DNA of 37,142 bases from positions 1 to 37,142 of the IMG/VR virus record IMGVR_UViG_3300009285_002699. One strand, written 5' to 3'. Shown one piece after another: positions 17,337 to 35,999 of the stretch; within the stretch, counting starts at the first letter, position 1, and each line of letters begins with the position of its first letter. A program made the position numbers and the translations under genes. Origin of the DNA: a virus. The notes below the pieces were generated by a model that was given only the letters and a program-made list of their open reading frames with translations, was not told the origin of the DNA and ran no database searches.

Positions 17337-17894
17337 TTACTCCTTTTTGGCCGTCTTACGCCCAACCACCGCAAAGAGGTTGGGGTTCTCGGCTTTCACG
17401 GCTTCATAAGCCGCTACATAATCAGTATTTTCGTGTTCAGCTTGGTAAGCCTTAATCAGCGCATCCACGCCCTTAGAATCATCGGCGGGAGGCAGAGCAT
17501 CACTACCTTTCTCCCCAAGCAGCTTGGATTCGTCGATCTGCGCCGAGAGCGCGCGAAGCTGCTGGAGCGCCCAAGCACGGGTCTTTTCGGGCATCCCGGC
17601 CAGGTGGTCGATAACGGTCTCGGCATCCTCGCCAGTAACCAAGCTGGTAAATGCCGCGCCGTACTCTTCGGTCGCAAACTCGCCTCGAATTGCGGTTAAC
17701 AACTCGGCCTTAGCCCTTTCTGCTTCCATCGCCTCGATTTTCGCAGCATAATCATCGCGTTCTTTTTGCAAGGCCGTAAATTCTTCGGGTTTGATAGAAG
17801 GCTCCTCGGATTTCGGCGCGGGAGGCTTCTGGCTGAATAGCGAAACAACGCTGTCCCAAAGAGTGCGGGGAACTGCTACGGTTTCTTCTGGCAT
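17337..17894 (-). CDS. Nested scaffold protein (in-frame internal start)
   Basis: 185 residues starting MPEETVAVPRTLWDSVVSLF. ATG 17894 is in frame with the protease gene and has an excellent AAAAGGAG site (17901-17908) six bases before it. The product is the coiled-coil scaffold alone, ending FAVVGRKTAKKE. Mu I/Z and lambda C/Nu3 use the same nesting to make excess scaffold relative to protease. Confidence 0.75.
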   Translation of the reverse strand: MPEETVAVPRTLWDSVVSLFSQKPPAPKSEEPSIKPEEFTALQKERDDYAAKIEAMEAERAKAELLTAIRGEFATEEYGAAFTSLVTGEDAETVIDHLAGMPEKTRAWALQQLRALSAQIDESKLLGEKGSDALPPADDSKGVDALIKAYQAEHENTDYVAAYEAVKAENPNLFAVVGRKTAKKE

Positions 17895-18494
17895 CTCTAA
17901 CTCCTTTTCTTTATGTGTATAAATCGCTGCCGCCTCACCAAGATAGGGCGTATGCAACAGCGCCATTCCTAAAATAATCGGCGGCTCAACTTTCGATCCG
18001 TCCGGCATCTCCATCGGTTCATCCCAAATTACTTCGGGAGAGTGATAGCGATAATCGCCCTCGTCGAAAGCAAGTCTCCCCTTTGGGGTGGTTTCGGTTA
18101 AGGCATAAACGCCATCATCTCGAACTTCCAGGCCAATGATGTGTCCGCCAGCAGGGGCTTCGTCTGCGTGACTCCCCAGCTTGATTGGGGGTTTGAAATT
18201 CGGCAACCTGAACCGGGACGCTAATGCAGGGGTGATATTGCGGGTTACGCCGCCGCGCTTAAGCTCCCCGAACGGGAACAGCCGCACTGCCTCCCCCGGC
18301 GTTACGTTGACATAGCTTTCATTGGAGATAAAAACCTGTTCGGTGGTCATGTTCTCCCTTGCGTGCATCGCCGCAATTTGAGCGCCTGCCGCTTCTGGCG
18401 TGGCGTGGCAGCCCATCTTCTGGTCGGTTCCTTTTTTGAACACGCCATGAGGCTTGTCTTCTGGGCATCCTTCTTTGCGGGTTTCGTATGGCAT
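17337..18494 (-). CDS. Prohead protease (Mu gpI-like) with C-terminal scaffold
   Basis: 385 residues. N-terminus: a short Cys/His phage module (CPEDKPHGVFKKG...MGCHATPEAAGAQ, about 9-40). Residues ~50-190 are the Mu gpI-like protease (KLGSHADEAPAGGHIIGLEVRDDG; YRYHSPEVIWDE; LLHTPYLGEAAA). The rest is a charged coiled-coil scaffold (about 240-385). The annotated ATG has no ribosome site and stands three bases after a terminator T-run; ATG at residue 49 (AAGGGAG upstream) is an alternative start, though the Cys/His module argues for the long form. Confidence 0.8.
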   Translation of the reverse strand: MPYETRKEGCPEDKPHGVFKKGTDQKMGCHATPEAAGAQIAAMHARENMTTEQVFISNESYVNVTPGEAVRLFPFGELKRGGVTRNITPALASRFRLPNFKPPIKLGSHADEAPAGGHIIGLEVRDDGVYALTETTPKGRLAFDEGDYRYHSPEVIWDEPMEMPDGSKVEPPIILGMALLHTPYLGEAAAIYTHKEKELEMPEETVAVPRTLWDSVVSLFSQKPPAPKSEEPSIKPEEFTALQKERDDYAAKIEAMEAERAKAELLTAIRGEFATEEYGAAFTSLVTGEDAETVIDHLAGMPEKTRAWALQQLRALSAQIDESKLLGEKGSDALPPADDSKGVDALIKAYQAEHENTDYVAAYEAVKAENPNLFAVVGRKTAKKE

Positions 18495-19226: not shown

Positions 19227-19684
19227 GCGCCGCGGCCCTCGATGAACTCAACCATCTTCTCCACGGCCTTGTCGAACAACTCCATGATCTTCTGGTAGGA
19301 CAGCCCAATCACTTGTTCAAGCCGCCACCAATATTGCGACATGAATTGTGATTGCTGCCCTCGCTCCCCAATTACATAGGGAGCATAATTGAGATTGGTT
19401 CCGAAATGTCCCTCCTGGACATTCGCCCCTAGCTGGCGCACCTCGAAAATGTCCGGCTGCCCCAGCTTTTGTCCCGATTGGCTGACGCCGAGCGTCCTTC
19501 CCATAGTTCCTGTTCGATTATAGGTGCTTGTGGCCGGTGCTGGCACATAGGGGGGCACATTCTCCCAGAATACGAATAGGGACGCCTTTATCGTTTCGGC
19601 AATTACCGCGATAAATTTGCGGGGAGCTTGTTTCATGCGCTCCTGGATCTCTTCCAAATTGCGGATTTCGACGATCTTAGGCAT
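19223..19684 (-). CDS. HK97 gp10-like / minor head-tail protein
   Basis: 153 residues, MPKIVEIRNLEEIQERMKQAPRKF..., then YVPAPATSTYNRTGTMGRTLG (about 46-66) and GTNLNYAPYVIGERGQQSQFM (about 95-115). The sequence of a helix, a 'tgTGxLr.s' strand and 'YApyVE.G' resembles HK97 gp10-type and phage virion-morphogenesis proteins. It ends in a long helix. Located right after the MuF cluster. Confidence 0.65.
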   Translation of the reverse strand: MPKIVEIRNLEEIQERMKQAPRKFIAVIAETIKASLFVFWENVPPYVPAPATSTYNRTGTMGRTLGVSQSGQKLGQPDIFEVRQLGANVQEGHFGTNLNYAPYVIGERGQQSQFMSQYWWRLEQVIGLSYQKIMELFDKAVEKMVEFIEGRGA

Positions 19685-19686
19685 CG

Positions 19687-19986
19687 CTAAGCCCGCTCAA
19701 CATAACCCTTCCCCATACAGGTATAGCAAGTTTCCAATCCATGCCTGTGTAATGCCATAGGAGGCGAACCGGTACTAGAATACCCTATTTCCATCCCCCG
19801 TCCCTTGCTGTTCCAATATTTAATAAACTCTTCGCCTCTTCCCTTGCCCCCGCAAGTTGGGCAGGGCATCATGGTTTGCTGGAAAATCAAGTCCGATCCC
19901 TCTAACCTGTCCTGCATCATTTCACGCAAAACGTTATCCGCCTCTTCTTCAATCTTGTTTTCTATTAATCCACGCAGGAATTTCAT
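19687..19986 (-). CDS. Small protein with DnaJ-like CxxCxGxG zinc motifs
   Basis: 99 residues. Two motifs, CPTCGGKGRGEEF (about 42-54) and CYTCMGKGYVERA (about 87-99), are the paired CxxCxGxG units of DnaJ-type zinc fingers, separated by about 35 residues and preceded by a charged helix (LIENKIEEEADNVLREMM). It could be a chaperone-like or Zn-structural head protein. Follows the 71-residue gene by an overlapping stop/start at 19986. Confidence 0.6.
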   Translation of the reverse strand: MKFLRGLIENKIEEEADNVLREMMQDRLEGSDLIFQQTMMPCPTCGGKGRGEEFIKYWNSKGRGMEIGYSSTGSPPMALHRHGLETCYTCMGKGYVERA

Positions 19987-20201
19987 TACGATTTCCTTTC
20001 TTCAAAAAACTTCACGAATTCATCGGGGACTGGTTCTTCTTTGGTATTCTTTAAACCCCCGCGTGATTTCTTTAGCGCCAGAGCATATTCTTTTAGGGCA
20101 TCTTCTGCCGCCTCTCTAAGTAAAGGAATATCGGACACCCAAATTATTAACATAGTCTCAAGCATTATGATCTTTTGGGCCAGTAAAGCAAAGTAGTTCA
20201 T
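19986..20201 (-). CDS. Small helical protein after the MuF gene
   Basis: 71 residues, MNYFALLAQKIIMLETMLII... to EFVKFFEERKS. ATG 20201 overlaps the MuF TGA (ATGA), which decides this start over an in-frame ATG at 20276 located inside MuF. Hydrophobic N-terminal helix, then charged helices. Unrecognised. Confidence 0.55.
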   Translation of the reverse strand: MNYFALLAQKIIMLETMLIIWVSDIPLLREAAEDALKEYALALKKSRGGLKNTKEEPVPDEFVKFFEERKS

Positions 20202-21652
20202 GGTGCCGCCAATATCCTTTCTAGCCGCTCCTCGAAGCGGGCAATTGAGACTACGGGCAAAAGCCGGCACCGGCAATTGTGGGTTATAATATTATTGGCA
20301 AAAAACATTCCGCTATCCGTTTGGAGATTGTAAACATGACCAGAAAAATACTCGTTCCTAATCTCGATGATTTGCTCCGCCGCTATGTGGCCGGGGAGTC
20401 CGAAAATGCTTTGGCTAAGGAATCGGGCATCAACCGCTTCACCTTCCGCACCCGGTTGGTGGAGGCCGGAATAATCCCGCGTAGTCAATCCGAGGCCGAG
20501 TTGATTAAGTGGTCTAGGATGTCCGCAAGGAAACGTGCTACCCAAGTCGCTGCCGCCCATGAAGCCGCCCGTGGGCGTAAAGTCTCTTTCGCCGAAAAGT
20601 GCCGAAGGGCCAAGGCTATTGAGGGAAGCAAAACCCATAGTGTCTCTGACAATGAGATTGTTTTGGGCAATTGGTTGCGTGGCATGGGATATGCCCCAAT
20701 TCATAATCTCGCGGTTGGGCCTTATAACTGTGATCTCGGAATTAGCGCCGTCGCCGTGGAAGTCTGGGGTGGAGGTTGGCACCCGAAACCCAATGAGGCC
20801 GATAGATTCAAATACATTCTCGATGCGGGGCATCATATTATGATTGTTGATCTGGAACAACGCAGATTCCCTTTGTCCCGCAAGGTTCTCCAACACATCA
20901 TCGCCCTGATTGAGTTTGCTGGCAGCAATCCAACCATTACGCGTGAGTATCGGATGGTTCGGGGTAACGGCGAGTTCGTTTTTCGCCGTCTTAATGATAA
21001 TAATATCTCCCTCATACCACCGTTTACTAGCCGCCGCAATCCCGCCAATGGGCAATACCAACGAGTTCCCAGGTAAACAGTTTACATGTGCTGGGGGGCC
21101 TGCCTTCGGTTCCCATTCCCCTAGACCTCCTGCGCCAGGAATCGGAATAAACCAATTGCCCTCTAACGCAACTATCGTATTATCTAAAGGGGCGCAAATC
21201 GGACAAACCAACTCGTCCCGCGCCGTCATCCACCGCTTCTCGCCTACTACCCCCGAACTTGCCCACATCATCTGATTACCTTGCGAGTAAATACGGGTCA
21301 CTTCCGTTGTGGCAATCGTGGATACTCGCTGTTCGCCAAAGATTGGGATAAGCCGCGCCTCTAGCGCCGGAAGCGCCGCGCCCTCGCGTATCCAGGCCTC
21401 GATAGCGCGCATCACCTGCTTGCGAGTAGTCTCGCTAATGCCGAAGATAGTATTGAGTCGATAGAGATTAAGATACTCGATAGCCGCCGTGTTGAAAACA
21501 TCCCAGCTTATGAGCAGACGAGCTTCGGGAGGCAGCGTGTTTATTCCGCTCTCGCCTCCGGCCAGGAGGGTAAGGACTACAATCTCAATGATGTCCCGCC
21601 AGAGATTGCGCTCCTCTTCGTTCCAGAATTCCTGTTCGTAGAGATTAGCCAT
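20198..21652 (-). CDS. MuF-type minor head protein interrupted by an intein
   Basis: 484 residues as translated. Residues 1-191 plus 460-484 are a MuF/SPP1 gp7-like head protein: VSTIATTEVTRIYSQGNQ (about 110-127), RWMTARDELVCPICAPLDN (140-158), and the zinc-like end PPAHVN|CRCRLLPV, into which the intein is inserted exactly between Asn191 and the next Cys. The spliced host protein would be 216 residues. MuF proteins sit at the portal inside the head and are needed for DNA ejection or head formation, so splicing is required for function. Follows the portal gene and a short zinc-like ORF by overlapping ends. Confidence 0.9.
   Translation of the reverse strand: MANLYEQEFWNEEERNLWRDIIEIVVLTLLAGGESGINTLPPEARLLISWDVFNTAAIEYLNLYRLNTIFGISETTRKQVMRAIEAWIREGAALPALEARLIPIFGEQRVSTIATTEVTRIYSQGNQMMWASSGVVGEKRWMTARDELVCPICAPLDNTIVALEGNWFIPIPGAGGLGEWEPKAGPPAHVNCLPGNSLVLPIGGIAAASKRWYEGDIIIIKTAKNELAVTPNHPILTRNGWIAASKLNQGDDVLENLAGQRESALFQINNHNMMPRIENVFESIGLIGFRVPTSTPDFHGDGANSEITVIRPNREIMNWGISHATQPIAQNNLIVRDTMGFASLNSLGPSALFGERDFTPTGGFMGGSDLGSTFPCGHPRPLNQLGLGLTTRDYSGLHQPGAEGEAVDARFLSQSIFGLPGHIAAEQIIEIRNEYFSGHVYNLQTDSGMFFANNIITHNCRCRLLPVVSIARFEERLERILAAP
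20276..21079 (-). mobile_element. Intein in the MuF gene (268 residues, apparently complete)
   Basis: Spans MuF residues 192-459. Block A: Cys192 then LPGNSLVLP. Block B: ELAVTPNHPILTRNGW (226-241) with the TxxH pair Thr230 and His233. A central domain with the phage-intein phrase PDFHGDG (297-302). Block F/G: GHVYNLQTDSGMFFANN (438-454) and IITHN ending His458-Asn459, with Cys460 as the +1 nucleophile. All splice-catalytic residues are present, so it should be active. No endonuclease domain is encoded in its own frame; the endonuclease gene lies antisense within it. Confidence 0.9.
20336..21076 (+). CDS. Vsr-like homing endonuclease, antisense inside the intein
   Basis: 246 residues from ATG 20336, behind a GGAG site (20322-20325). 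The N-terminus holds a helix-turn-helix (LDDLLRRYVAGESENALAKE, then SGINRFTFRTRL, about 10-41). The C-terminal half is the Vsr/EDxHD-type nuclease seen in homing enzymes: AVGPYNCDLGISAVAVEVWG (126-145) followed by GGWH (146-149), with Asp133, Glu142 and His149 in the expected places, then a DAGHHIMIV strand and an EYRMVRGNGEF region. The gene ends at 21076, opposite codon 2 of the intein. It would cut intein-less MuF alleles; that role is inferred from family and placement. Confidence 0.85.
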   Translation: MTRKILVPNLDDLLRRYVAGESENALAKESGINRFTFRTRLVEAGIIPRSQSEAELIKWSRMSARKRATQVAAAHEAARGRKVSFAEKCRRAKAIEGSKTHSVSDNEIVLGNWLRGMGYAPIHNLAVGPYNCDLGISAVAVEVWGGGWHPKPNEADRFKYILDAGHHIMIVDLEQRRFPLSRKVLQHIIALIEFAGSNPTITREYRMVRGNGEFVFRRLNDNNISLIPPFTSRRNPANGQYQRVPR

Positions 21653-21848
21653 CCTTGCCTAAAAAGTCGGCCCCATCAACTAATACTAAAGGTAATATAT
21701 CCCCTTTGACATTGCAGGGCCACACTGGTATATAAGGCTTGAAATGAGAGATACAATCATCCCCATGATCTTCGGGATACCACGGCGAATCGGGTTGGAG
21801 AATTGCCCCACATCCCAGACATTTATGAAAAGGGTATTTATCATCCAC
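21645..21848 (-). CDS. Small Cys-containing protein between portal and MuF
   Basis: 67 residues, MDDKYPFHKCLGCGAILQ..., with CLGC, a later Cys at DDCISHF and one at WPCN, suggesting a zinc site. It overlaps the portal stop and the MuF start by eight bases each, so it is genuinely translated. Function unknown. Confidence 0.6.
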   Translation of the reverse strand: MDDKYPFHKCLGCGAILQPDSPWYPEDHGDDCISHFKPYIPVWPCNVKGDILPLVLVDGADFLGKDG

Positions 21849-23280
21849 TTCTCAATCCTTTCGCTGCCGCGATAATCCGGCGGCTCTGCTCGTTGAAAAA
21901 CCGCTTGAATCCAGACGCCCACTTGCCCTCCCATTCCCGCCGCTCATCATCATCAGGACTTGCGCCAACCGCGTAACGTTCCGCCCAGACATCGACGTCA
22001 AATTCGCCCTGTGGTTTTCCGTTCTGCTTCTGGAAAGCCTGATTCCGTATCTGCTCCTTTTCCATCTCCTGCTGACGCTTTTCCTCCCTTGCTGCCCGAA
22101 TTGCCTCTACGTCCAGTTTGGGCAACCCAAATGCTCCACGTAGCCAGACCTCATCCTCCTCTGTCCACGTAAGTTGCGGGGCGAGTCTCTGGATAGACTC
22201 GGATACGACATTGGCGTCTATATCCCCGGCGGGGGAATGCTCAAGTCGTAGCCCATCAGCCTCTAGGCCATTCAAGCGCATAAGCCGCGGCAGGGCAATT
22301 TTGGTAATAGTCTCCGAAACGATGTCTGCGATAACGTTCACCGACATGTTGAACAAGTCAGTTTGGTCGCGGCTCAGGCTTAGTGCCCCCACTCTGTCCA
22401 TGCCTAGCATCAGAAATTGTGCAAGCACAGACATGAGTATCCGCTTCTCGTAGCGGTTAATAATAGCGTCGACGTCGAACTGTTTGCTTCCACCTGCCGA
22501 AAGCAATTCCAGTGTCCACCCAGGCGGGAGGGCAACGCCAGCTTGCTCGTCGTTGCGAATATTGCGGACGAGGCGCACAGCACGTCCATAATCAGTGGTT
22601 TCGCTGTCTGTTTCAGTGGGGTCGGCACCCTCGGGAAGAGTAATCACGGGCAACCCCGCCACATCACGCTCGACTCCGATACCCTCAAGCATCTGGAAGT
22701 TTTTTACAAAATAATATGAGGTATACGCCGTGCGCAGAATACTGCGCCCTTCGGGATTATTGCGTTCCACACGCGCCCGATAAATAACAAGTTTCTCAAT
22801 GGGCAGGAATACACCCTTGATCGCCGTTGTGGTGCGCTGCCAAAAGCCCTCCATTCCCCCAGCCTCATCCAGTTCCCAGCGCCATATCGTATCCTGGCCG
22901 CGAAGAGCCAGCTTGCGCCACAGTATCCGACTACCATCGCGCTTATAAACAATCTCAAAGGGAGAGAAGCCGAAGGGGAGGAAAGTCAACGCTTCGATGA
23001 TATGGTCGTTCCAGGAGTTGCTCATGTTCTCGCGGCTATCATTCAGAATTTCAAGCCGCGGGTCATTTTCACCGTTTTCGCTGGTGAACTGCCACTCCAC
23101 AGAACGGACGGCTTGTTCGATTGCCATGAGCATCGCACCAACGACGGGGGAGTTTAGGCGCATTTCTTCGTAACGCTTGTAAGCCTCCTGCCCTCGAAGT
23201 TCTCGGAGGAAATCCTGCTGGATGATACCGGCCCATTGTGTCAGGCCACTGGAACCAAGTTCGGTAAAGTTATTTGGCAT
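21841..23280 (-). CDS. Portal protein (Mu gp29/DUF935-like)
   Basis: 479 residues from ATG 23280, chosen because AAAGGAA precedes it; the longer reading from 23310 would add ten residues inside the previous gene. Features: LNSPVVGAMLMAIEQAVRSVEWQF (about 43-66), LPFGFSPFEIVYK (about 101-113) and the late EGRSILRTAYTSYYFVKNFQ (about 177-196) are characteristic of the portal family related to Mu gp29. A charged C-terminal tail follows. It forms the dodecameric head vertex through which DNA enters. Confidence 0.85.
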   Translation of the reverse strand: MPNNFTELGSSGLTQWAGIIQQDFLRELRGQEAYKRYEEMRLNSPVVGAMLMAIEQAVRSVEWQFTSENGENDPRLEILNDSRENMSNSWNDHIIEALTFLPFGFSPFEIVYKRDGSRILWRKLALRGQDTIWRWELDEAGGMEGFWQRTTTAIKGVFLPIEKLVIYRARVERNNPEGRSILRTAYTSYYFVKNFQMLEGIGVERDVAGLPVITLPEGADPTETDSETTDYGRAVRLVRNIRNDEQAGVALPPGWTLELLSAGGSKQFDVDAIINRYEKRILMSVLAQFLMLGMDRVGALSLSRDQTDLFNMSVNVIADIVSETITKIALPRLMRLNGLEADGLRLEHSPAGDIDANVVSESIQRLAPQLTWTEEDEVWLRGAFGLPKLDVEAIRAAREEKRQQEMEKEQIRNQAFQKQNGKPQGEFDVDVWAERYAVGASPDDDERREWEGKWASGFKRFFNEQSRRIIAAAKGLRSG

Positions 23281-23491
23281 CTTTGTTTCCTTTATCAATA
23301 ATGAGAACATGTTCTCCCACTAATACTCCATTCCTATAAACCCCCGAAAAATAACCGCCAATAGTCCCATCTTTTCGCCGCCACAGTTGCATTGAATCCC
23401 AAGCGATTGCCTCATTTGCGGTTTCTATCATCTCCCCAAGCAATTCCATACCATCGGCACTAAATACTATAGTGGCTTCTTTAGCTCCCAT
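23270..23491 (-). CDS. Small hypothetical protein between terminase and portal
   Basis: 73 residues, MGAKEATIVFSADGMELLG..., mixed alpha/beta with FSGVYRNGVLVGEHVLII. No family recognised. Overlaps the portal start by 11 bases. Confidence 0.55.
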   Translation of the reverse strand: MGAKEATIVFSADGMELLGEMIETANEAIAWDSMQLWRRKDGTIGGYFSGVYRNGVLVGEHVLIIDKGNKDAK

Positions 23492-25750: not shown

Positions 25751-26596
25751 TCATCTCGTGCCAACCTTCGCCAATACCATCCCGTAGTTATTAATACCCT
25801 CTGGAATTTCTATATCTAGCTTTTTCTCAAGCCGGTTATCCTTGAACGGGCGATAATCCACTTGGTGTTGCCAGCGTCCCCACTTCCACGTTATTTTTGT
25901 AACGTCAGGATGCTGCCGGACAAGAGACTGCGCCATAAGTAACCTACCATCCCGATTATCTGATTTATACAGATCCTCAGTATTCCCGCCTTTCATGGTC
26001 ATTGTAGGCATCTTCTGCGCCCAAAACGCCTGAAATAATATCGTACACCAACCATCCTTTAATACCCGAAGGGACAGGTCGATATCCTCATTATAGCGGC
26101 CACGCCATCGGTAGGGAATATCGTTTTTTATTAGAATACAGGAATAAATCCTCGTATTAAGACGGAATGGAGGATCCTTTTCTTTGCTTCTAATAAACAT
26201 AAAATATTGGGGGCCAGATAATGCCACATTCTTATACCTATCCGTAAAATCCTCCATCGCCTCAAATATCGCTCCCGTTAATACGGGTATTTTTCTATTA
26301 TTATTATACCTGCCAAACGCGCGGATATTATCATCTAGCACCCAGTGCCTTTCTACCCCTAGCTCTATGGCATGTTCCCATACCCAGTTGCGCGCCGGGA
26401 TTGACCTCTGCCCTAAATTACTAAATGGCAATACTAGAATTTTATCGGGGTTAATTACTGCTGCATAATTATCATATTCCTGGGATTCAACAACTATATG
26501 GTAGGGAATCCCCATTCGTTCCAGCGCCTTACTGGTAAGTCTCGATTCCCATCGCCCCTTAGAAATTATATAAATCGGATAGCTAAGATTCGACAT
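25751..26596 (-). CDS. DNA-type glycosyltransferase, TAGT-like
   Basis: 281 residues (ATG 26596; a GTG at 26605 is possible). YPIYIISKGRWESRLTSKAL near the start, then VVESQEYDNY, the catalytic-type WVLDDNIRAF (about 90-99) and YNEDIDLSLRVLKDGW resemble the TET-associated glycosyltransferase (TAGT) family of phages, which attaches sugars to hydroxymethylated bases. A ParB-like gene lies directly upstream, a recurrent pairing in DNA-hypermodification clusters. No TET oxygenase or methyltransferase for DNA is in this window, so the modified base is unknown. Confidence 0.65.
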   Translation of the reverse strand: MSNLSYPIYIISKGRWESRLTSKALERMGIPYHIVVESQEYDNYAAVINPDKILVLPFSNLGQRSIPARNWVWEHAIELGVERHWVLDDNIRAFGRYNNNRKIPVLTGAIFEAMEDFTDRYKNVALSGPQYFMFIRSKEKDPPFRLNTRIYSCILIKNDIPYRWRGRYNEDIDLSLRVLKDGWCTILFQAFWAQKMPTMTMKGGNTEDLYKSDNRDGRLLMAQSLVRQHPDVTKITWKWGRWQHQVDYRPFKDNRLEKKLDIEIPEGINNYGMVLAKVGTR

Positions 26597-26615
26597 AGGC
26601 TTCACTAAAATCGTT

Positions 26616-34959: not shown

Positions 34960-35106
34960 GCCAGGGACATAAAGAAACCCAAAAATTCCAAGCGAGCCAC
35001 CAGAACGAAGAAACCCAGAGCCTCTAAGCGAGCCCTCAAATTAAAGAAGCCCTTAGTGCCCAAGCGAGCCATGATCCACAAGAAACCCAATGAAAGCAAG
35101 CGATGA
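34960..35106 (+). pseudogene. Basic 12-residue repeats in frame behind a TGA (readthrough tail or broken gene)
   Basis: 48 in-frame codons after the TGA at 34957. They contain four copies of a 12-residue unit, KKPxxxKRAxxx (a 36-base period, units starting 34972, 35008, 35044, 35080), like histone-H1-type tails. The unit is conserved at protein level in this frame. The end (TGA 35104-35106) overlaps the ATG of the HNH gene, as for a translated gene. No good start codon is present. A competing ATG at 34956 in another frame yields only 23 residues. Confidence 0.5.
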
Positions 35107-35999
35107 AAAATTCCCATATCTATGAAACATTACTCAAACAGCAGCAAGGTGTCTGCGCGCTTCAAGTCTCGCCTGAATGTTTAGGGCGGCAAGGGAGACT
35201 TCCCGACCGATACCTCACTCACATCGATCGAATAACCTCCGGTGCGTATGGCGGGAAATACGAATTGGGAAATTGCCAACTCATCTGCCTAGAGTGTGAT
35301 TGGGAGAAGGAAGGAAATCGCCCGGCCTCCCAGCATCCGCAATTGGCCGCGGCTCATCGCCAATACAAAATGTGGCAGATAGAATATGGGCGAATGGACA
35401 GAAAAATCCGCGCTTATCAAGGAGACTTAAGCGGAACGACACGCTCTCCATACATTGACGAACATACTCTGGCAGAACTGGAAGAATTGAAGGGGTTCTT
35501 TGCCAGCCAGACAGATTTGCACGAAAAAAGGCTAAAGAAATTGGTACGGGAAACGCCGGAATGGGGAGGCTTTATGAAAAATGCCCCCGGACTAAAAGAG
35601 ATAACCGCGGCGATGCTCCTGTCCCGCGTGGATATTCATAAAGCCAACACGGTATCAGCCCTGTGGCGATATTTAGGATACGTGCCAACTAGGGGAGAAA
35701 ATAAAGTGGATGATTACAATCCCGGAAAGGGGACAGATCTGAAATCACCGCTTTTTGCCGCCCTCTCAATTTCACTCATCCGCAAGAACAGCCCCTATCG
35801 TGAACGGTATGATGCCATGAAAAAAAGAGGACTTGGACATGGACAAGCTGTTTATCGACTGATAAAGCTGTGGCTTTCGCATTTGTGGGATACCTGGAGG
35901 CAATATGAAGGATTGGAAACCCGATTGGCTTATGTAAATAACCATCTGGGACATTCTACAATCTACAAAGCCGAGGATTTTGGATGGCCCCGGCCATAA
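35103..35999 (+). CDS. HNH nuclease fused to an IS110-transposase-like C-terminal domain
   Basis: 298 residues. The N-terminal zinc/HNH part: GVCALQVSPEC (about 16-26), DRYLTHIDRITSGAYGGKYE (35-54), GNCQLICLECD (56-66), with His40, Asn57 and four zinc Cys. A coiled-coil linker (about 120-150) leads to NAPGLKEITAAMLLSR (160-175) and ANTVSALWRYLGYVP (181-195), the helix-hairpin-helix core of the IS110/IS116/IS902 C-terminal domain (Transposase_20). Then SPLFAALSISLIRKNSPYRE (215-234) and AVYRLIKLWLSHLW (249-262) complete it. The DEDD domain of IS110 enzymes is absent, and the catalytic Ser-Gly motif is not obvious. ATG overlaps the preceding TGA. Confidence 0.75.
   Translation: MKNSHIYETLLKQQQGVCALQVSPECLGRQGRLPDRYLTHIDRITSGAYGGKYELGNCQLICLECDWEKEGNRPASQHPQLAAAHRQYKMWQIEYGRMDRKIRAYQGDLSGTTRSPYIDEHTLAELEELKGFFASQTDLHEKRLKKLVRETPEWGGFMKNAPGLKEITAAMLLSRVDIHKANTVSALWRYLGYVPTRGENKVDDYNPGKGTDLKSPLFAALSISLIRKNSPYRERYDAMKKRGLGHGQAVYRLIKLWLSHLWDTWRQYEGLETRLAYVNNHLGHSTIYKAEDFGWPRP

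Follow-up and report, generated by a model that had tools for sequence, protein, structure and literature searches.

The MuF-like head morphogenesis gene of the virus record IMGVR_UViG_3300009285_002699 raises the question of whether the same base pairs encode two genuine proteins, an intein on one strand and a homing endonuclease on the other, and whether both belong to one mobile element. The whole stretch of DNA analysed (37,142 nucleotides, hereafter the window) contains on its minus strand an open reading frame (20198-21652) in which MuF (Phage_Mu_F) and an intein are joined in one continuous frame, flanked by genes for a Mu-type portal protein (21841-23310) and a Mu-like protease (17337-18494). 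Elsewhere in the window, a TET-associated glycosyltransferase is encoded on the minus strand at 25751-26605 (PF20691, E 1.5e-47), which suggests hypermodified phage DNA, and a plus-strand gene at 35103-35999 gave a weak match to HNH endonucleases (E 0.006), possibly corresponding to another mobile or packaging nuclease. Over the same bases as the intein, the plus strand is open from 20279 to 21076. A previous reading made without database searches (the sequence-only reading) had proposed a complete intein on the minus strand and, antisense and wholly inside it, a gene for a Vsr-like homing endonuclease.

The N-extein of the MuF-like protein (21080-21652, minus strand) matched Phage_Mu_F (E 7.6e-7) and phrog_15127 (E 3e-42), whereas the C-extein (20198-20275, minus strand), delimited by the ORF and intein boundaries, starts with CRCRLLP and includes the stop codon. 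The 804 nt between them (20276-21079, minus strand) encode an intein of 268 aa that matched the Pfam family Intein_splicing (E 5e-8), begins with C1 (CLPGNSLV) and ends with H267-N268, directly followed by Cys+1 of CRCR; the MuF insertion site reads HVN/C and HN/CRC at the two junctions, marked here by slashes. On the same strand, splice block B (TPNH, containing T39 and H42) is located at 20954-20965, where the C-terminus of the endonuclease overlaps it, block F (GHVYNL) at 20324-20341, and block G (His267-Asn268, before Cys+1) at 20276-20281. The class-1 intein residues C1, T39, H42, and N268 were each conserved in 42 of 42 aligned sequences, and Cys+1 is present in the window. AlphaFold modeled the Hint fold with pLDDT values of about 90 or more across most of residues 1-65 and 231-268, and the best Foldseek matches of the intein model were solved inteins (top E 2e-3), the closest being the Mtu RecA intein 2imz. 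As far as can be judged from its sequence, the minus strand at 20276-21079 encodes a complete class-1 intein at the conserved MuF motif HxN/CRC, for which splicing is inferred; on this point the sequence-only reading was correct, all blocks being intact.

Three other kinds of insert were ruled out. An intein with an in-frame endonuclease domain does not fit, since Pfam, PHROGs, and NCBIfam gave no endonuclease match for the sense frame and the middle of the intein was modeled without a confident fold. A fractured gene with a split intein was discarded by the continuity of the MuF ORF, and a group I intron with an antisense homing endonuclease gene (HEG) by the absence of any Rfam match to a self-splicing RNA element (E ≤ 1, positions 19500-22000) together with an insert that is open in frame with MuF. 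The MuF-intein fusion carries the label NAD+--asparagine ADP-ribosyltransferase in the jerseyvirus records MZ560703, OQ507916, and NC_073183, probably wrongly.

The antisense gene (20336-21076, plus strand) encodes 246 aa plus a stop codon wholly within the intein, and the AlphaFold model of its product reached a mean pLDDT of 93.1. Its likely start is the ATG at 20336, opposite His248 of block F, and the gene ends with a stop codon (21074-21076) that faces codon 2 of the intein. The containment within the intein and a ribosome site (GGAG), as claimed for this gene by the sequence-only reading, were thus found, but the start is most likely not the GTG at 20279, which represents an upstream extension. 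In every overlapping relative examined the two frames lie codon on codon, plus position 1 facing minus position 3.

When searched alone, the plus-strand product of the window gave no match in Pfam, PHROGs, or NCBIfam, and its relationship to endonucleases emerged from family profiles and relatives. A resolvase-like helix-turn-helix (HTH) domain was found at the N-terminus (20363-20470, plus strand; gamma-delta resolvase profile, E 7.5e-5; helices H10-43 in the model), Pfam HTH_7 being matched by 19 of 24 relatives, and single members of the family matched HTH_7, MTES_1575, and DUF559. The family profile matched 3r3p, the catalytic domain of I-Bth0305I (E 3.6e-8), and the top ranks of the structural alignment were occupied by Vsr 1cw0 (Z 10.2, 110 residues, rmsd 2.4) and I-Bth0305I 3r3p (Z 9.7, 90 residues, rmsd 2.2). 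Throughout the endonuclease alignment, which covers 98 loci, the catalytic candidates E107 (20654-20656), D133 (20732-20734, in YNCD), and E142 (20759-20761, in VAVEV), all on the plus strand, were conserved without exception (98/98), and Y130, N131, and R157 were nearly invariant. The D, E, and H active-site candidates of the sequence-only reading therefore fared unequally: the Vsr-like fold and the acidic residues were upheld, whereas H149 was present in only 76 of the 98 endonucleases, and no second invariant D was found for the EDxHD signature. On the basis of the profile matches, the invariant residues and the modeled fold, the antisense product is an HTH protein with a Vsr-like nuclease domain, of homing-endonuclease type, whose nuclease activity is inferred. 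According to the coordinates, E142 lies opposite F107 of the sense motif DFHGDG, which is the codon mirror of the antisense active-site strand AVAVEV; because of this mirroring and of the confident intein fold, two structured proteins are read from much of the first 125 intein codons.

In this register antisense stops come only from TTA, CTA, and TCA codons; therefore, openness alone is weak proof and a careful null was needed. The plus frame might be open and conserved merely through its codon-on-codon position opposite a conserved intein, and this is favored not only by the rarity of antisense stops but also by the scores of sense-preserving codon shuffles, which still averaged 87 ± 16 bits with an endonuclease profile built without the window's sequence. 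The real frame, however, reached 287.7 bits as compared to a maximum of 128 in 300 shuffles, and the antisense frame stayed open in a single one of these 300. Moreover, antisense identity was higher than sense identity in 259 of 261 pairs, substitutions wobbled in the antisense frame, the free-standing homologues described below presented from 5 to 13 stops in the sense frame, and the predicted product adopts a Vsr fold with high confidence (pLDDT 93). The explanation by position alone was rejected on these grounds and retains next to no credibility.

Differences per codon position were obtained from 36 independent pairs, in which each locus was used once although some sequences came from one cluster. 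Values at antisense positions 1, 2, and 3 were 0.305, 0.193, and 0.483 in the middle of the intein, and 0.251, 0.119, and 0.349 in the nuclease core, and position 3 exceeded position 1 in 35 of the 36 pairs (P 1e-9). Opposite blocks A and B they were 0.314, 0.113, and 0.244, with the wobble back in the sense frame and both depressed, and the flanking extein displayed an ordinary sense pattern (0.345, 0.25, and 0.617 for sense positions 1, 2, and 3).

The opposite possibility is that the endonuclease is the sole functional gene, the sense frame being open while the intein is dead or MuF broken. The middle of the intein (aa 126-228; 20396-20704, minus strand) could be taken in that sense, as it has no conserved sense fold and is effectively a mirror of the endonuclease gene: pLDDT was mostly below 50 at residues 128-226, opposite the antisense HTH half, and identity was 46% in sense vs. 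64% in antisense. Nevertheless, the splicing residues are invariant, and sense-frame stops were absent from 117 embedded loci where 696 would be expected from local codon usage, whereas free-standing endonuclease genes contained about as many as predicted; these codon-usage nulls rest on limited coding sequence per locus. In the reverse shuffle, with the endonuclease kept, the intein profile scored 254 bits for the real sequence vs. 138 ± 12 bits. The sense frame dominates at blocks A and B, and a broken MuF would be expected to impair head assembly. A dead intein or broken MuF is accordingly very improbable. The shuffles, stop counts, and wobble shifts taken together indicated selection on both frames, each of which takes the lead over a different part of the DNA: the sense frame is dominant at blocks A and B and the antisense frame elsewhere, and both are constrained over approximately the first 125 intein codons. 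Constraint in both frames, which the sequence-only reading had proposed as a check, was thus seen in the substitution pattern: purifying selection acts on the antisense reading and on the sense frame as well.

Signals for the expression of the antisense gene were located within the splice blocks. The Shine-Dalgarno sequence GGAG (20323-20326, plus strand) lies opposite block F, whose reverse complement provides both this site and the ATG. The Leu codon of block F was CTC (GAG on the other strand) in 67 of 86 relatives, in contrast with 19% expected, and its His codon was CAT (ATG on the other strand) in 82 of 91, as compared to 46% expected. A TATAAT hexamer (20285-20290, plus strand), -10-like and a candidate antisense promoter, is contained in the codons of block G, 9 nt inside the splice junction; a perfect TATAAT near the junction is missing from most relatives, but was present in 21 of 97 vs. 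1.5 ± 1.1 (maximum 5) in 300 sense-preserving codon resamplings. The Shine-Dalgarno sequence and ATG in block F codons and the TATAAT in block G are more than codon usage explains. The TATAAT bias supports a putative private promoter for the antisense gene without proving it, and no recognisable -35 was found for this hexamer in the window by a bacterial -35/-10 scan.

A tblastn search with the plus-strand product retrieved 132 phage records, all below 60% identity, including Salmonella jerseyviruses and records from Escherichia, Klebsiella, Pseudomonas, Vibrio, Gordonia, Haemophilus/Aggregatibacter, and others, and these relatives lay mostly antisense within genes that carry a head-protein or hypothetical-protein annotation. 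The profile of the GGGW subfamily matched 234 viral stretches and a second profile 39. Relatives with the plus frame interrupted by stops would have refuted the sequence-only reading; among the 165 loci first collected, the opposite in-register frame was free of stops except at L002/L069 (one contig), L041, and L148, with 5, 12, and 13 stops, respectively, while the other two opposite frames of the 165 loci had from 2 to over 40. The exceptions (L002 3800-4666, L041 455-1345, L148 2884-3891) are free-standing endonuclease genes, convergent with an intein-less MuF and just downstream of it. To check whether an intein-bearing MuF always has the opposite-strand ORF, as the sequence-only reading had proposed, inteins were collected by sense sequence alone; each of the 80 obtained, which were those nearest to the window, had an antisense endonuclease match.

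The free-standing endonucleases were nested among the embedded ones (quick tree, SH-aLRT 82-96). A free-standing endonuclease as the ancestor was not favored, since given this nesting an escape from an intein is as likely or likelier, though only tentatively so because sampling began from embedded copies. The record of phage GE_vB_HIL (L250) is flagged UNVERIFIED, and its frameshifts were disregarded. A scan of viral contigs that used the complete MuF-intein protein as query detected no relative, the peptide patterns being too specific, and scanning of genome contigs detected only one Arcobacter MAG, with a single narrow motif, so that absence there means little. In the annotated records examined the antisense gene was unannotated, except for the free-standing copy of phage IME285. 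Inteins with an antisense gene are widespread, mostly unannotated, and not peculiar to the window.

Nine Gordonia phage records, among them those of Lennon and SchottB, have a different protein in antisense. Where the locus itself was read (L247 2381-3205 and L248 2381-3205, from Lennon and SchottB), the same MuF site is occupied by a different intein without a Vsr-like gene, whose antisense in-register frame reads ...AAYVAAFIDGEGTVTV..., a LAGLIDADG-like endonuclease. Cyanophage PP and Caulobacter phages encode relatives of this protein (E 2e-6 to 8e-6); it matched I-MsoI weakly (E 4e-4) and Pfam LAGLIDADG_3 below the cut-off of that family, and a viral-contig scan with it yielded no relative. 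The two Gordonia variants differed at 16, 6, and 51 of the antisense positions 1, 2, and 3, respectively, with the wobble at antisense position 3. Since Vsr-like and unrelated LAGLIDADG-like genes occur at the same MuF site, antisense capture seems to have happened at least twice.

With regard to mobility, an intein-less sister was not detected for the phage of the window itself, and the evidence comes from Jersey/Kaguna-type phages. Among these, Escherichia phage XY1 (NC_073325, L246) provided an exact empty site, in which a relative's MuF is without the insert, exactly 816 nt being absent and 103 of 120 nt being identical, with no gap, across the join; this absence could reflect loss rather than the ancestral state. 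In L177 (IMGVR_UViG_3300040801_000142) a single MuF is interrupted by inteins at two separate positions, and each of these contains an antisense Vsr-like endonuclease gene of its own. In L185 (IMGVR_UViG_3300036760_000785) the splice blocks of a shortened intein are intact while its antisense endonuclease is truncated and interrupted, as in a decaying stage. The empty site, the double insertion, and the decayed copy are what a homing cycle would be expected to produce; homing as such is inferred from comparison of sequences.

The antisense protein might be real but have some other role than the homing of this intein (for example regulator, phage interference nuclease, or maintenance factor): an HTH protein with a nuclease domain could act elsewhere, and an intein endonuclease that cut a rival phage's gene would spread too. 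Such a role is nonetheless unlikely, with only a slim chance left to it: the antisense gene is contained exactly within the intein, its family matches a mobile-intron endonuclease (I-Bth0305I), a relative holds the exact empty allele, a decayed copy is tolerated (L185), and a second intein at a second MuF site has an antisense gene of its own (L177). We consider it highly probable that the locus is a composite mobile element, a MuF intein carrying its own homing endonuclease gene on the opposite strand, in which splicing, expression, cutting, and homing are inferred. The MuF precursor would splice itself free of the intein, leaving the host gene unharmed, and the endonuclease would be expressed separately, from an opposite-strand promoter of its own. 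The nuclease is not fused to the intein, and therefore its expression would be independent of head-gene expression. It would then bind and cut intein-less MuF DNA in co-infecting phages, and repair of the cut would copy the whole insert.

Several known systems share part of this organization. I-Bth0305I, of the EDxHD/Vsr-like family, resembles the antisense product in its catalytic fold (3r3p), a conserved E and (A)xEV motif, DNA-binding modules, and carriage by a mobile element; however, its gene belongs to a mobile intron (PDB name 'Mobile intron protein'), whereas the window gene is antisense inside an intein coding sequence, and in the window's family neither the H nor the second D of the EDxHD signature is invariant. 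Bifunctional in-frame inteins (LAGLIDADG, e.g., PI-SceI) share the Hint splicing domain, the conserved motif of an essential protein and the homing logic, but there one polypeptide has both activities, while in the window a separate opposite-strand gene has its own ribosome site. Dassa and colleagues reportedly described in 2009 fractured genes with split inteins and a free-standing Vsr-like HEG between the halves. The likeness consists of an intein associated with a Vsr-like homing endonuclease; in those genes host gene and intein are split, whereas in the window the intein runs uninterrupted, with the endonuclease gene overlapping it on the opposite strand. Didymium group I introns with antisense HEGs (His-Cys box) similarly place an endonuclease gene antisense to the host gene within a self-splicing element (PMC9548176). 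A group I intron, however, is an RNA element whose opposite strand need not encode protein, whereas in the window the same base pairs encode two proteins. No intein with an antisense endonuclease was found in the open-access papers searched, subscription papers being outside the scope of the search, and because of this limit the novelty of an architecture apparently undescribed is likely rather than certain. The sequence-only reading had known of no established case of a Vsr-type nuclease antisense within an intein; its statement stands within that scope, for an arrangement shared with many relatives.

In textbook mobile inteins the endonuclease is encoded in frame, and inteins without an in-frame endonuclease are usually taken as immobile relics. 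Here a large family of inteins without in-frame endonuclease holds a complete and selected opposite-strand gene, largely missed by gene finders. Antisense placement is probably a general strategy of phage inteins: at least two unrelated endonuclease families would have been captured in MuF inteins at one and the same site, and in the larger family the promoter and ribosome site would lie in the splice blocks and about 125 codons would be dual, so that the nuclease is expressed independently of the host gene and may be switched by the direction of transcription. The locus offers a strong natural example of genes that overlap completely, codon on codon, with selection on both and regulatory signals embedded in splice motifs, which makes it useful for studies of overlapping-gene evolution, and new Vsr-like homing endonucleases directed against a conserved head gene of phages might be obtained from the family.
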